A stretch of 64,000 nt of DNA from Limimaricola pyoseonensis (GTDB lineage Bacteria; Pseudomonadota; Alphaproteobacteria; Rhodobacterales; Rhodobacteraceae): positions 173,273-237,272 of the forward strand of contig NZ_FNAT01000005.1 in NCBI RefSeq assembly GCF_900102015.1, read 5' to 3'. Under the pieces are notes generated by a model. It ran no database searches. It was not told where the DNA came from and saw only the letters and a program-made list of their open reading frames with translations. Shown here in pieces: positions 28,115 to 32,463 of this stretch. How positions within the stretch are numbered: position 1 is the stretch's first letter; every line of letters begins with the position of its first letter. The position numbers and the translations under genes are program-made.

Positions 28115-29233
28115 TCAGATCCGGGCCGCCACGCGCTGCAGCAGGTCGAGGCAGGCGGCGAGCTGCGCCTCCTCGAGATACTCGTCGGGCCGGTGCGCCT
28201 GCGCGATGTCGCCGGGTCCGCAGATCGCCGTGTCGATGCCGAGGCCCTGCCAGATGCCGGCCTCGGTGCTGAATGCGACGAGACCGGGGGCGGCGCCCGT
28301 CAGCTCGGCCAGCAGGTCGCGCGCGGCGTTTTCCGGCACGGGCCGCAGCCCCTCGACCTCGCCGAAGCATTCGGTCTCGATCCCGAGCCCCGGCCGTGCC
28401 GTCGTCTCGGCCGCGACGTGATCGGCGAGCGCGCGTTTCACGTGCGACGCCTCGGCCTGCGAGACCGGCCGCATCTCCCATTCGACCTCGGCCTGCCCCG
28501 CGATCACGTTGCGCGCCGCCCCGGCCGCGACCCGGCCGACATTGATCGTCGCCCATGGCGGGTCGAACGGTCCATCGGGGCGCATCGCCTTCAGCTCCTG
28601 CGCCAGCGCCGAGAGCCGCGTCACGAAGCGCGCCGCGGCTTCGGCGGCGTTGATACCGCGCTCGGGCGCCGAGCCGTGGCCGTCGCGGCCCGTGAAACGG
28701 GTGGTGTATTCGCAGCAGCCCTTGTGCCCCTCGACCACGCCGAGCCGGGTCGGCTCTCCGACGATGCAGAGAGCGGGGCGCGGCACTTCACGGCGCATCG
28801 CTTGGGCCAGCGCCCCCGCGCCGACGCATCCCACCTCCTCGTCATGGGTGAGCGCGATGTGGACCGGCGCATCGGCGGCGGCGAAACGCGGGCCCAGCGC
28901 CACGCAGGCCGCCACGAAACCCTTCATGTCACAGCTGCCGCGTCCGTAAAGGCGCCCGCCCTCGCGACGCAGCCGGAACGGGTCGGACGACCAGCCCTCG
29001 CCCGCCGGCACCACGTCGAGATGCCCCGACAGCATCAGCCCGCCGGGCCGATCCGGGCCGAAGGAGGCCACGAGGTTCGCCTTCTCGCCCGTGGCGTCGG
29101 GCAGAAGCCGCACCCGCGCGCCGTCGCCACGCAGCCGGTCGGCCAGCATCTCGGCCAGCGCGCGGTTGGGGCGGTCCGACACGGTCGGATGCGCCACCAT
29201 CTGCGCCAAGAGGTCGATGGCGTCCTCCAGCAT
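28115..29233 (-). CDS. ArgE-like acetylornithine deacetylase (M20 family)
   Basis: A 372-residue M20 zinc deacylase. The metal-binding segments are LSGHLDVVPAGEGW (His and Asp), YGRGSCDMKGF, LTHDEEVGCVGA (catalytic Glu) and CIVGEPT, with GPGDIAQAHRPDEYLE near the end, typical of ArgE. In that role it removes acetyl from N-acetylornithine. It lies two bases after the M24-family gene and shares its operon, so its real substrate may be an N-acetylated product of that enzyme rather than an arginine intermediate. ATG 29233 begins MLEDAIDLL; the longer frame upstream overlaps the neighbour and is rejected. Confidence 0.85.
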   Translation of the reverse strand: MLEDAIDLLAQMVAHPTVSDRPNRALAEMLADRLRGDGARVRLLPDATGEKANLVASFGPDRPGGLMLSGHLDVVPAGEGWSSDPFRLRREGGRLYGRGSCDMKGFVAACVALGPRFAAADAPVHIALTHDEEVGCVGAGALAQAMRREVPRPALCIVGEPTRLGVVEGHKGCCEYTTRFTGRDGHGSAPERGINAAEAAARFVTRLSALAQELKAMRPDGPFDPPWATINVGRVAAGAARNVIAGQAEVEWEMRPVSQAEASHVKRALADHVAAETTARPGLGIETECFGEVEGLRPVPENAARDLLAELTGAAPGLVAFSTEAGIWQGLGIDTAICGPGDIAQAHRPDEYLEEAQLAACLDLLQRVAARI

Positions 29234-29235
29234 CC

Positions 29236-30420
29236 TCAGTCCTTTACGAAGAGCCGGCGGTCGAGGTCGCAGAGCGTCTCGGCCGGGCCGCTCTCGCGGA
29301 TCAGGATGGTCTCGGTGGTCTCGAGCCCCCACTCCTCCATCCAGATGCCCGGCATGAAGTGGAAGGTCATGCCCGGCTCCAGCACCGTCAGGTCGCCCTT
29401 GCGCAGGCTCGCGGTGCGCTCGCCCCAGTCCGGCGGGTAGCTCAGCCCCACCGGGTAGCCGCAGCGGTTCGGGCGGTGGATGCCGATGCGCCTGAGCGGC
29501 GCATGCAGCGCGGCGGCGATGTCCTGCGTGGTGTTGCCGGGCCGCGCCGCCTCGAGCCCGGCGGCAAGGCCCTCGTTCAGCGCCTCCGACGCCTCGGCCA
29601 TCGCCTTGGGCGGCGGCCCGAGATGCACGGTGCGGCAGAGCGGCGCGTGGTAGCGGCGCACGCAGCCCGACAGCTCGAAGAAGGTGGCCTCGCCGCGCTT
29701 CATCTCCTCGCCGTTCCAGGTGAGATGCGGCGCGCTGGCATCGGCGCCAGAGGGCATCAGTGGCACGATCGCGGCATAGTCGCCCCAGTCGTCGCCGGTG
29801 CCGCGCACGGCGGCGCGCATCACCTCGCCCACCAGCTCGTTCTTGCGCCGGCCCGGCTCGGCCAGCTCGATCGCCAGCCGGGCGATGGTCTCGGAGATCC
29901 GCGCGGCGCGGCGCATGAAGTCGATCTCCTCATCGGACTTCACCAGCCGCTGCCAGTTCACGAGCGCCGTCGCATCGACGAACTCGGCATTGGGCAGCGC
30001 GGTCTGCAGCACGGCATGGGCCTTGGCGGAATAATAGTAGTTGTCCATCTCGACGCCGATCCGGGCGCCGCCGTGGCCCATCCGCAGGATCTGCGCGGCG
30101 AGGTCCTGCATCGGGTGGCGCGTGACCGACTGCACGTAGTGGTCGGCATAGCCGAGGATGCAGGCTTCCGGCATCCAAACCGTGCGCTGCGCGCCGGCGG
30201 TGTCCTGCATCCGGCCCCACCAGCAGGGCTCGCCGTCGAGCGGCAGGAGCACGCCCTGGTGGACGTAGAAGGACCAACCGTCATAGCCGGTGAGCCAGTT
30301 CTGGTTCGACGGGTCGGTGACGAAGAGCAGGTCGACCCCGGCGGCCTCCATGGCGCGGCGGGTCTTCGACAGGCGGCGTTCGTATTCGGCGCGGCTGAAC
30401 GGCGCGGTGTGCGGTCCCAT
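29236..30420 (-). CDS. M24-family amidohydrolase resembling ectoine hydrolase (DoeA/EutD)
   Basis: A 394-residue creatinase/prolidase-fold protein. From memory it closely matches DoeA/EutD, which opens the ectoine ring to N-acetyl-diaminobutyrate: FSRAEYERRLSKTRRAMEA, LTGYDGWSFYVHQGVLLPL, GVEMDNYYYSAKAHAVLQ, SGADASAPHLTW, GLSYPPDWGERTASLR and GMTFHFMPGIWMEEWG. The two-metal ligands of classic M24 peptidases are mostly replaced (FFELSG and YHAPLCRTV where Asp would be expected, FHFMPG for FTxEPG). This fits metal-free creatinase-type hydrolases. The ATG at 30420 has GAGGAGGAG upstream. The rest of the ectoine pathway (doeB, uptake genes) is absent; ArgE follows directly. Confidence 0.8.
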   Translation of the reverse strand: MGPHTAPFSRAEYERRLSKTRRAMEAAGVDLLFVTDPSNQNWLTGYDGWSFYVHQGVLLPLDGEPCWWGRMQDTAGAQRTVWMPEACILGYADHYVQSVTRHPMQDLAAQILRMGHGGARIGVEMDNYYYSAKAHAVLQTALPNAEFVDATALVNWQRLVKSDEEIDFMRRAARISETIARLAIELAEPGRRKNELVGEVMRAAVRGTGDDWGDYAAIVPLMPSGADASAPHLTWNGEEMKRGEATFFELSGCVRRYHAPLCRTVHLGPPPKAMAEASEALNEGLAAGLEAARPGNTTQDIAAALHAPLRRIGIHRPNRCGYPVGLSYPPDWGERTASLRKGDLTVLEPGMTFHFMPGIWMEEWGLETTETILIRESGPAETLCDLDRRLFVKD

Positions 30421-30849
30421 GGCTCCTCCTCGCGGTCGACGCGTTCACCGAACCCCGCCGCGCACCCCCCGGTCTAGGCCGGGGGCGGCGCCGCAGGTGA
30501 CGAAAACGACCGGATGAGTTCGCGCGCCGGAAAACACGTCATGGAAGAGCCATTCCTGGCAGGCAGGGCCGGCAGCGGCGATCTTCCTGCCCTGCGCCTT
30601 GGCGCGATGGCAGGCCCGCGGCCCGCTTCGCGAAACCTCGCCGAGCCTTGGCAAACCCTTGCCGACCCGGTTTCGGCCAACGCGGCAAGGGCTTGCGCCG
30701 TTCAATGGCGGAAATCGGCCTGTCAAGCCCCTCTGCTTGCATGGCACCCCCTTCGGCAAGCGCATTGCAAGCCGCTCCAGGCTGGATCATGGGATCGTGC
30801 AACATCACTGCCGATTCCCGCGCGACTCCATCGCCTTAGAAGACCTGAC
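30421..30849. other. 429-base non-coding region before opgG
   Basis: I see no convincing gene. The plus-strand frame is open, but it lacks a ribosome site and reads as low-information sequence. Several short GCAAG/CTTGC dyads occur (GGCAAACCCTTGCC near 30651, GGCAAGGGCTTGCGCC near 30685, GGCAAGCGCATTGCAAGCC near 30754). This may be the opgG control region, since periplasmic glucan synthesis responds to osmolarity. Confidence 0.5.
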
Positions 30850-32463
30850 ATGACCAAGACCCGCCCTGCCCCCTCGACGATCGACCGCCGTGCCCTGCTG
30901 CAGGCGCTGGCACTGACCGCGCCGGTGCTCGCCGGGATCGGTCGGGTCGGCCCCGCCATGGCCGACGAGGCCCCCCGGGTGATTCCGCCCAGCGGCGCCG
31001 CGCCCGAGCCCGAGACCTTCAGCTTCGACGCGCTGACCGAGACGATGCGCGCCGCCGCCACGCGGCCCGCCCCCGAGCCCGAGACCGTCGGCTCGGGGCT
31101 GGGCGAGCTGGGCTATGACGACTACCGGATGATCGCCTTCCGGCCCGACCGCGCCCGCTGGCGCGACGACGCCGACACCGATTACCGCGTGCATGCCTTC
31201 CACATGGGCTGGCTGTTCCAGGAGCCCGTGCGCCTCTACGAGGTGGAGGACGGTCTGGCCCGGCCGCTGGCCTTCACCACCGAGGATTTCCGCTATCACG
31301 GCCCCCTGGAGAAGAAGGCCGAGACCGTGGACGAGCTGCCCGGCGTCGCCGGCTTCCGGCTGAACGCCCCGCTCAACCGCCCCGACCGCGAGGACGAGCT
31401 GGTGGCCTTCCTCGGCGCGAGCTACTTCCGTGCGCTGGGCAAGAACAGCCGCTACGGGCTGAGCGCGCGCGGCGTGGCGATCGACACCGCGACCTCGGAG
31501 GCCGAGGAATTCCCTCGCTTCTCGCGCTTCTGGCTGGAGAAGGCGGGCAAGAGCGTGGTAATCTACGCCGCGCTCGAGGGCCCGAGCCTCACCGGCGCCT
31601 ACCGCTTCGTCGTGACGCCGGGCGCCGAGACGGTGATGGACGTCACCGCCCGGCTGTTCTTCCGCCGCGCGCCCGAGCAGCTCGGCGTGGCGCCGCTGAC
31701 CTCGATGTTCCTCTATTCCGAGAAGAACCGCGCCGATTTCGACGATTACCGCCCGGCGGTGCATGACAGCGACGGTCTGATGATCCGGCGCCGCGACGGC
31801 GACGTGATCTGGCGGCCGCTGAACAACCCGCCGCGGCTGTCGGGCTCGTATTTCTCGGAAGAGAGCCCGCGCGGCTTCGGCCTGCACCAGCGCGACCGCG
31901 ACTTCGAGGCCTATCAGGACGGCGGCGCACGCTACGAGCGCCGACCCTCGCTGATGGTCGAGCCGCAGGGCGACTGGGGCCGCGGCGCGGTGCGCCTCGT
32001 CGAGATCCCCACCGACCTCGAAGCCAACGACAACATCGTCGCCTTCTGGGTGCCCGAGAAGAAGGTCGAGGCCGGCGAGGCACGCGAATACGCCTACCGG
32101 CTGCGCTGGGGCGACCTGCCGGTCGACCCCGCCGCCGAGATCGCCCATGTCGCCGAGACCCGCGCCGGCGCGGGCGGCGTCTCGGGCGTCGAGGCCGAGG
32201 CCAACAGCCGCAAGTTCGTGATCGACCTCGAGGGAGGCCTGCTGGCCGATCTGCCCGCCGATGCCGAGGTGACGCTCAAGGCCAATGCCAAGGGCGGCAA
32301 AATTATCTCGCAGACCCTGGAACGGATCGAGGCGAACGGCGTTTGGAGGGTCGTGCTCGACGTCACCGCCCCCGAGGGCGAGACGGTCGAGCTGGCCGCC
32401 CATGTCGCGGGCTTCGACCGCAAGCTCTCCGAGACCTGGCTCTATCAATGGATCAACGCCTGA
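30850..32463 (+). CDS. opgG: Osmoregulated periplasmic glucan biosynthesis protein OpgG
   Basis: A 537-residue periplasmic protein needed for beta-glucan backbone assembly and branching. ATG 30850 starts a twin-arginine-type signal (DRRALLQALALTAPVLAGIG); its E. coli paralogue OpgD is Tat-exported while E. coli OpgG is Sec-type. The mature part matches the OpgG family: FSFDALTETMRAAA, YDDYRMIAFRPDRARW, the YFRALGKNSRYGLSARGVAI block and SMFLYSEKN. The C-terminal Ig-like domain ends LYQWINA. First gene of the opg operon; its TGA overlaps the ATG of the next small gene. Confidence 0.95.
   Translation: MTKTRPAPSTIDRRALLQALALTAPVLAGIGRVGPAMADEAPRVIPPSGAAPEPETFSFDALTETMRAAATRPAPEPETVGSGLGELGYDDYRMIAFRPDRARWRDDADTDYRVHAFHMGWLFQEPVRLYEVEDGLARPLAFTTEDFRYHGPLEKKAETVDELPGVAGFRLNAPLNRPDREDELVAFLGASYFRALGKNSRYGLSARGVAIDTATSEAEEFPRFSRFWLEKAGKSVVIYAALEGPSLTGAYRFVVTPGAETVMDVTARLFFRRAPEQLGVAPLTSMFLYSEKNRADFDDYRPAVHDSDGLMIRRRDGDVIWRPLNNPPRLSGSYFSEESPRGFGLHQRDRDFEAYQDGGARYERRPSLMVEPQGDWGRGAVRLVEIPTDLEANDNIVAFWVPEKKVEAGEAREYAYRLRWGDLPVDPAAEIAHVAETRAGAGGVSGVEAEANSRKFVIDLEGGLLADLPADAEVTLKANAKGGKIISQTLERIEANGVWRVVLDVTAPEGETVELAAHVAGFDRKLSETWLYQWINA

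Follow-up and report, generated by a model that had tools for sequence, protein, structure and literature searches.

What is the function of an M24-family protein whose gene is followed, two bases downstream, by one for an ArgE-like deacetylase of the M20 family? The question is raised by a gene pair of Limimaricola pyoseonensis, in a 64,000-nucleotide stretch of contig NZ_FNAT01000005.1 (positions 173,273 to 237,272), the whole of which is called the window here. In canonical ectoine degradation DoeA converts ectoine to N(alpha)-acetyl-diaminobutyrate, from which DoeB, a member of the M14 desuccinylase/aspartoacylase group, then splits off acetate (as described in parts of PMC8739950, PMC5924519 and PMC3187862). 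The Limimaricola pair is probably a DoeA-type ectoine hydrolase with an ArgE-type deacetylase in place of DoeB. In this scheme the M24 protein, without the usual metal ligands, would open the ectoine ring to give N(alpha)-acetyl-L-2,4-diaminobutyrate (ADABA), and the ArgE-type dimetal M20 enzyme would strip the acetyl group to leave 2,4-diaminobutyrate and acetate, serving as a putative non-orthologous replacement for DoeB/EutE (M14, desuccinylase/aspartoacylase type). ADABA is N-acetylornithine minus one CH2, so an ArgE-type enzyme would be a natural substitute for DoeB. The observations behind this prediction are the gene order, the families of the two proteins and their places in trees, the conservation of catalytic positions, co-occurrence across genomes, the absence of DoeB over its cut-off and the ectoine clusters of other genomes that hold the pair; from them we infer both substrates, the order of the steps and co-transcription. 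The features of the pair are as follows.

29236..30420, minus strand: M24 gene of the DoeA/EutD clade, predicted ectoine (hydroxyectoine) hydrolase, 394 amino acids, ATG start
29234..29235, minus strand: 2-base gap from the M24 stop codon to the M20 ATG, presumably within one transcription unit
28115..29233, minus strand: M20 gene, ArgE-type metallohydrolase of 372 amino acids, a predicted substitute for DoeB that would deacetylate N(alpha)-acetyl-2,4-diaminobutyrate
29674..29676, minus strand: M24 Glu249 codon, aligned with Glu255 of Halomonas elongata DoeA (HeDoeA) in the alignment to 6twk
29021..29023, minus strand: M20 His71, metal-ligand position, invariant in 18 aligned rows
28928..28930, minus strand: M20 Asp102, metal-ligand position, invariant in 18 aligned rows
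28835..28840, minus strand: M20 Glu132-Glu133, general base and ligand positions, invariant in 18 aligned rows
28754..28756, minus strand: M20 Glu160, ligand position, invariant in 18 aligned rows
28193..28195, minus strand: M20 His347, ligand position, invariant in 18 aligned rows

In the M20 family these residues (His71, Asp102, Glu132, Glu133, Glu160 and His347) serve as ligands or general base, and Asp73 also belongs to the metal site. The M20 reading frame is intact and begins at the ATG at 29233; a longer form, starting from a GTG at 29332 within the M24 gene, found no support in the alignment of 18 M20 rows, of which the other 17 are 43–76% identical to the window's M20. Reading-frame coordinates and a match to TIGR01892 confirmed that an ArgE-like M20 gene lies two bases downstream of the M24 gene, as the original prediction had it. 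Adjacent M24–M20 pairs were seen again in 60/163 DoeA loci compared (59 distinct DoeAs; 7 loci from Limimaricola), from Alphaproteobacteria and from metagenome-assembled genomes (MAGs) of Actinomycetota, a recurrence which argues that the pairing is not chance. The closest M24 relatives are those of Limimaricola loci (86–90% identity to the window's), and adjacency is kept in all 7 other loci of the genus. The pair represents a wide lineage, not a local oddity.

The M24 protein belongs with ectoine hydrolases. It has the Pfam domains PF00557 and PF01321, matches the DoeA model TIGR02993 at 580.5 bits (E 1.8e-174; curated cut-off of 613 not reached), is 60% identical to a Sinorhizobium meliloti homologue (L138) and matches HeDoeA (PDB 6twk) at E 1.1e-140, against E 5.1e-19 for the best prolidase. 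A FastTree phylogeny was built from 130 rows: 127 loci chosen from a pool of 163 DoeA loci plus three plasmid loci, the window, and two outgroup rows. In it 128 DoeA-type rows, the window's included, split with support 98 from the outgroup, a pair of M24 paralogues encoded in the same genome; both outgroup rows are long branches, and the program warned of long branches at the root. The protein thus grouped with DoeA and did not fall among prolidases; on tree and E-values a prolidase or creatinase identity was rejected. The earlier claim that most dimetal ligands are missing was right and understated: all five prolidase ligand positions are replaced (E249, P260, Y322, M356 and T369 in an alignment to 1pv9, whose ligands are D209, D220, H284, E313 and E327). 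No second DoeA was found in the window's genome (3.9 Mb, 99.99% complete), where the next best match scored 62 bits.

Within the tree, the window lies in a group of 67 DoeAs, 50 with an M20 gene next door, 17 with neither deacetylase and none with DoeB next door (support 83 for the fork, 99 for its 62-row core). One of the 17 (L026) does adjoin an M20 gene, truncated where the contig ends, and two M20-linked rows (L230, L235) branch outside the group. Glutamate occupies the HeDoeA Glu255 position in 67/67 M20-side and 58/58 DoeB-side DoeAs, and the other four former ligand positions hold the same letter in 66–67/67 and 56–58/58, respectively. Glu255 is reportedly catalytic in HeDoeA (Mais et al. 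2020). Among 105 positions near-invariant in DoeB-side DoeAs, 84 are conserved by 95% or more of the M20-side DoeAs (the window's M24 keeps 95 positions), and the same hydrolase chemistry is therefore to be expected on both sides.

Two side observations concern DoeA annotation. The TIGR02993 cut-off is exceeded in only 48 of the 188 Rhodobacteraceae genomes that have a DoeA match at E 1e-90; an annotation relying on this model would thus fail to name the majority of such DoeAs. Two plasmid DoeA-type genes (L135:4460-5644 and L136:8001-9185), 67.5% identical to the window's, are annotated just as M24 metallopeptidase; their neighbours include two SDR genes and one for a DMT transporter, with no annotated deacetylase near.

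The M20 protein (PF01546 and PF07687) scores 352.2 bits against TIGR01892, acetylornithine deacetylase, above the cut-off of 297.7, and 381.7 against the PRK07522 subfamily, below the cut-off of 412, which the M20s of three scanned relatives exceed (450–491). H71, D73, D102, E132, E133, E160 and H347 are invariant in the 18 aligned pair members. The DoeB model TIGR02994 is not among the best 25 of its 54 matches; the protein may work like DoeB but is not a member of that family. A product name ‘DoeB2’ may be in use; no model so named is among the matches listed, and the word was not found in the literature searched. Given the TIGR01892 score, by which NCBIfam would name the protein an acetylornithine deacetylase, it might be an ordinary ArgE of arginine metabolism that stands beside DoeA by accident. 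That is very unlikely. ArgJ, by recycling the acetyl group, renders ArgE dispensable; it was found in 49/50 genomes searched, including the window's, so the M20 enzyme is not needed there for arginine synthesis. Moreover, this M20 type follows DoeA (118/122 genomes; see below), and a 103-row tree places it in a 78-row clade (52 DoeA-linked and 26 unlinked rows, support 98) that holds 0/24 sampled paralogues, although one linked member (L194) falls outside.

The original prediction had suggested looking for doeB in the same genome: none exceeds the cut-off, and the best match to TIGR02994, on contig C9, reaches 95.4 of the 402.7 bits, on which ground an unlinked DoeB was rejected. In a set of 50 genomes carrying the window-type DoeA or near relatives (G000 and the genomes of 49 of 63 loci, also used for the EutC and ArgJ searches), DoeB over its cut-off was found in only 2. 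An M20 of at least 532 bits was present in 43 of the 45 genomes in which it was sought, and the two without a strong M20 (433.8 and 383.5 bits) are exactly the two DoeB genomes.

The family sample comprised 295 Rhodobacteraceae genomes, nearly one per genus, scored for DoeA (E 1e-90; 188 genomes), M20 (at least 500 bits, a cut chosen after a gap from 507 to 462 was seen; 122 genomes) and DoeB (over cut-off; 39 genomes). M20 and DoeA occurred together in 118, M20 without DoeA in 4, DoeA without M20 in 70 and neither in 103 (Fisher p 7.6e-27, which ignores relatedness). In one of the four (G196) a DoeA-type gene adjoins M20 on a short contig after all, and the two genes are no more than 500 bases apart in 73 of the 97 genomes, out of 118, with coordinates listed. 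Among the 188 DoeA genomes, 115 had M20 only, 35 DoeB only, 3 both and 35 neither, an exclusion with p 3.4e-15 that likewise ignores relatedness and holds at the laxer DoeB threshold of E 1e-50 (99 M20 only, 45 DoeB-like only, 19 both, 25 neither; p 3.8e-11, same caveat). Two of the three genomes with both deacetylases (G062 and G316) have two DoeAs each, one adjoining M20; in G062 the other adjoins DoeB. With these two set aside, M20 on the DoeB side was present in 9/19 DoeB-less genomes against 1/35 DoeB genomes. The original idea of a two-gene variant thus gains support, from DoeB absence, complementarity and clusters, as regards M20 standing in for DoeB; the ectoine ring is a cyclic amidine, not the amide first proposed.

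Ectoine genes accompany the pair in other genomes, DoeX- and DoeC-like ones among them. Using identity thresholds of our own choice (60% for EutB, EutC and DoeC, 70% for DoeD, 54% for DoeX and a loose 30% for EhuB), 24 of the 60 M20-adjacent loci had one or more further ectoine-type genes, 14 of these carrying two or more. In Mesorhizobium sp. YIM 152430 (L063), divergent EhuA, EhuB, EhuC, EhuD, EutB and EutC all exceed curated cut-offs and are followed by an Lrp-type gene (no NCBIfam match at E 1e-40) and a semialdehyde dehydrogenase gene below its models' cut-offs; DoeA there scores 604.7, below cut-off, and M20 490.7, above that of PRK07522. EhuB over its cut-off stands beside DoeA–M20 in L202 and in L069, a Nitriliruptoraceae MAG record (Actinomycetota), and L234 has an aminotransferase gene, EutB over PRK07476 and an EutC over PRK08291 yet under TIGR02992. 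M20 lies far from DoeA and beside DoeX- and DoeD-type genes in three genomes (L288, L290, L292), and L297 holds a diverged M20 in one locus with EutB-, EutC-, DoeX- and DoeD-type genes. The slot after DoeA that M20 fills elsewhere is taken by DoeB in the canonical Chelatococcus cluster.

These clusters also bear on the order of steps. ADABA could be transaminated and oxidised first, leaving M20 to deacetylate N-acetyl-aspartate last, a route which Schwibbert et al. 2011 (in part of PMC3187862) raise for organisms without the full doe set. The DoeD-type aminotransferases, however, look like one orthologue in both kinds of cluster (76–82% identity to one reference in M20-type, 71–85% in DoeB-type), which argues for a shared substrate, diaminobutyrate, and the closest named family of M20 acts on a basic N-acyl amino acid; we consider this order very unlikely. 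With deacetylation of ADABA as the preferred second step, a further role may arise: EutE presumably aids release of ADABA from EutD (part of PMC8739950), and if so M20 would have to serve that as well.

Several observations weigh against the proposed replacement. The M24 protein falls about 33 bits short of NCBI's DoeA cut-off, and it is accordingly called DoeA-clade here and not filed under that equivalog. DoeB-like proteins of 166–276 bits occur in 4 of the 48 ‘DoeB-less’ genomes of the 50-genome set (G008, G016, G019 and G042). After correction for the tree, the exclusion between M20 and DoeB loses significance (median p 0.25 on the DoeB side, 1 on the whole tree), and it may therefore rest on few events; on the DoeB side M20 runs opposite to DoeB in every informative pair (0 against 1–4). 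In 11 Roseovarius M20 loci no ectoine-type gene was closer than about 5 kb. As many as 35/188 DoeA genomes have neither deacetylase at the thresholds used; in the 15 of 17 such loci inspected by eye, no other deacetylase was obvious beside DoeA except a diverged M20 (L194), and one genome so counted (G085) has EutB-, EutC-, DoeX- and DoeD-type genes together with a diverged M20 (462 bits) at one locus. Some ‘neither’ DoeAs (L182, L184, L187) lie beside what we recognise as presumptive phosphate-transport or translation genes.

Of the later pathway genes, two have no close counterpart in the window's own genome. EutC reaches at best 118.6 of the 471.65 bits of its cut-off, and the best DoeD match is 42% identical, compared with 75% for Roseovarius pacificus. 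A tblastn search of the window with ectoine references matched only the M24 and M20 genes closely, all else being at most 37% identical, with no close EutB, EutC, DoeD or EhuB. The nearest DoeD match, the class III aminotransferase L244, was rejected: it lies beside what we take to be transporter-like and deacetylase-like genes and not beside ectoine genes. Without EutC or a close DoeD, only the first two steps are predicted for Limimaricola. These absences, neighbourhoods free of ectoine-type genes both in the window and at 7 Limimaricola loci, and a stem branch of 0.48 for the Limimaricola M20s would fit a pair recruited in Limimaricola to act on some other cyclic amidine or amide. The DoeA positions kept by the window's M24 and the unbroken adjacency in the other Limimaricola loci speak against this, and recruitment is very improbable.

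The genes flanking the pair in the window are, by recognition of their translations, presumably pyrimidine, dnaB, glucan and NAD genes. DoeA and the glucan gene are separated in Limimaricola sp. G21655-S1 by a gene of some 600 amino acids (L019:5961-7760), of which no counterpart is visible in the window at 30421-30850. A PotA-like ATP-binding gene lies divergently upstream of DoeA in 19/60 M20-linked, 30/68 ‘neither’ and 0/35 DoeB-linked loci, counts taken over flanks whose size varies between loci. In L212:5439-7920 such a gene is followed by one recognised as a PotD-like binding protein, a candidate ectoine importer of the M20-type lineage. In Roseovarius ectoine clusters (L027:4526-6778, L037:5077-5841) what is presumably a carbon-nitrogen hydrolase gene adjoins EutC, and some have a small gene, which we take to be reductase-like, between EutB and EutC.

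Compared with DoeA/DoeB (EutD/EutE) of Halomonas elongata, Ruegeria pomeroyi and Sinorhizobium meliloti, the pair shares the DoeA clade, tight linkage in the same order and, by prediction, the same two reactions; it differs in that its second gene is of M20/ArgE type and not M14-type DoeB, and its DoeA comes from a lineage mostly below the NCBI cut-off. With ArgE (TIGR01892, PRK07522 subfamily) the M20 enzyme shares family, dimetal-site positions, acyl-amino-acid deacetylation and the TIGR01892 score; unlike ArgE, it is linked to DoeA, in a genome with ArgJ, and its predicted substrate is one carbon shorter. AbgB, an M20 family member, provides a third comparison. Putative Bacillota ectoine clusters resemble the pair in having DoeA without DoeB, together with abgB, a putative amidohydrolase gene, and differ in phylum, in a deep DoeA branch, in being of AbgB and not ArgE type, and in that the part of PMC13188858 describing them gives no deacetylase role. 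The same paper also reports that Roseovarius and Nitratireductor have a divergent clade of EutD, gives abgB but no eutE for the Bacillota clusters, and focuses on genomes with EutE, taken as a criterion.

Elsewhere, likewise in parts of the sources, PMC8739950 has 363 genomes with juxtaposed eutD/eutE in its described set, PMC5320631 places argE in gamma-aminobutyrate (GABA) regulons of betaproteobacteria and gives the ectoine regulon as eutABCDE, and PMC7192451 keeps DoeB, although the Methylotuvimicrobium protein shares only 22% identity with the one from H. elongata. The part of PMC12016528 seen holds no mention of ectoine use by Limimaricola, and no proposal of an ArgE-type deacetylase for ectoine was found in a search of mostly open-access literature. 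The best reading is a known pathway in a new, predicted variant, common in the family: a DoeA-clade hydrolase with an ArgE-type deacetylase instead of DoeB.

M20-only genomes are about three times as numerous as DoeA–DoeB genomes in the Rhodobacteraceae sample. There is about an even chance that DoeA with an ArgE-type M20 forms an unrecognised second bimodule, with a structurally unrelated deacetylase and often a PotABCD-like candidate importer, and that it is the main ectoine route of Rhodobacteraceae, present also in Rhizobiales and Actinomycetota. Ectoine is a widespread osmolyte and nutrient, and surveys detect its consumers by EutD with EutE, a criterion that would overlook degraders using an ArgE-type deacetylase. 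Part of PMC3187862 assumes that where DoeA-like genes stand alone the organism either does not use ectoine or has alternative pathways with or without DoeA; the present finding makes that either-or directly testable.

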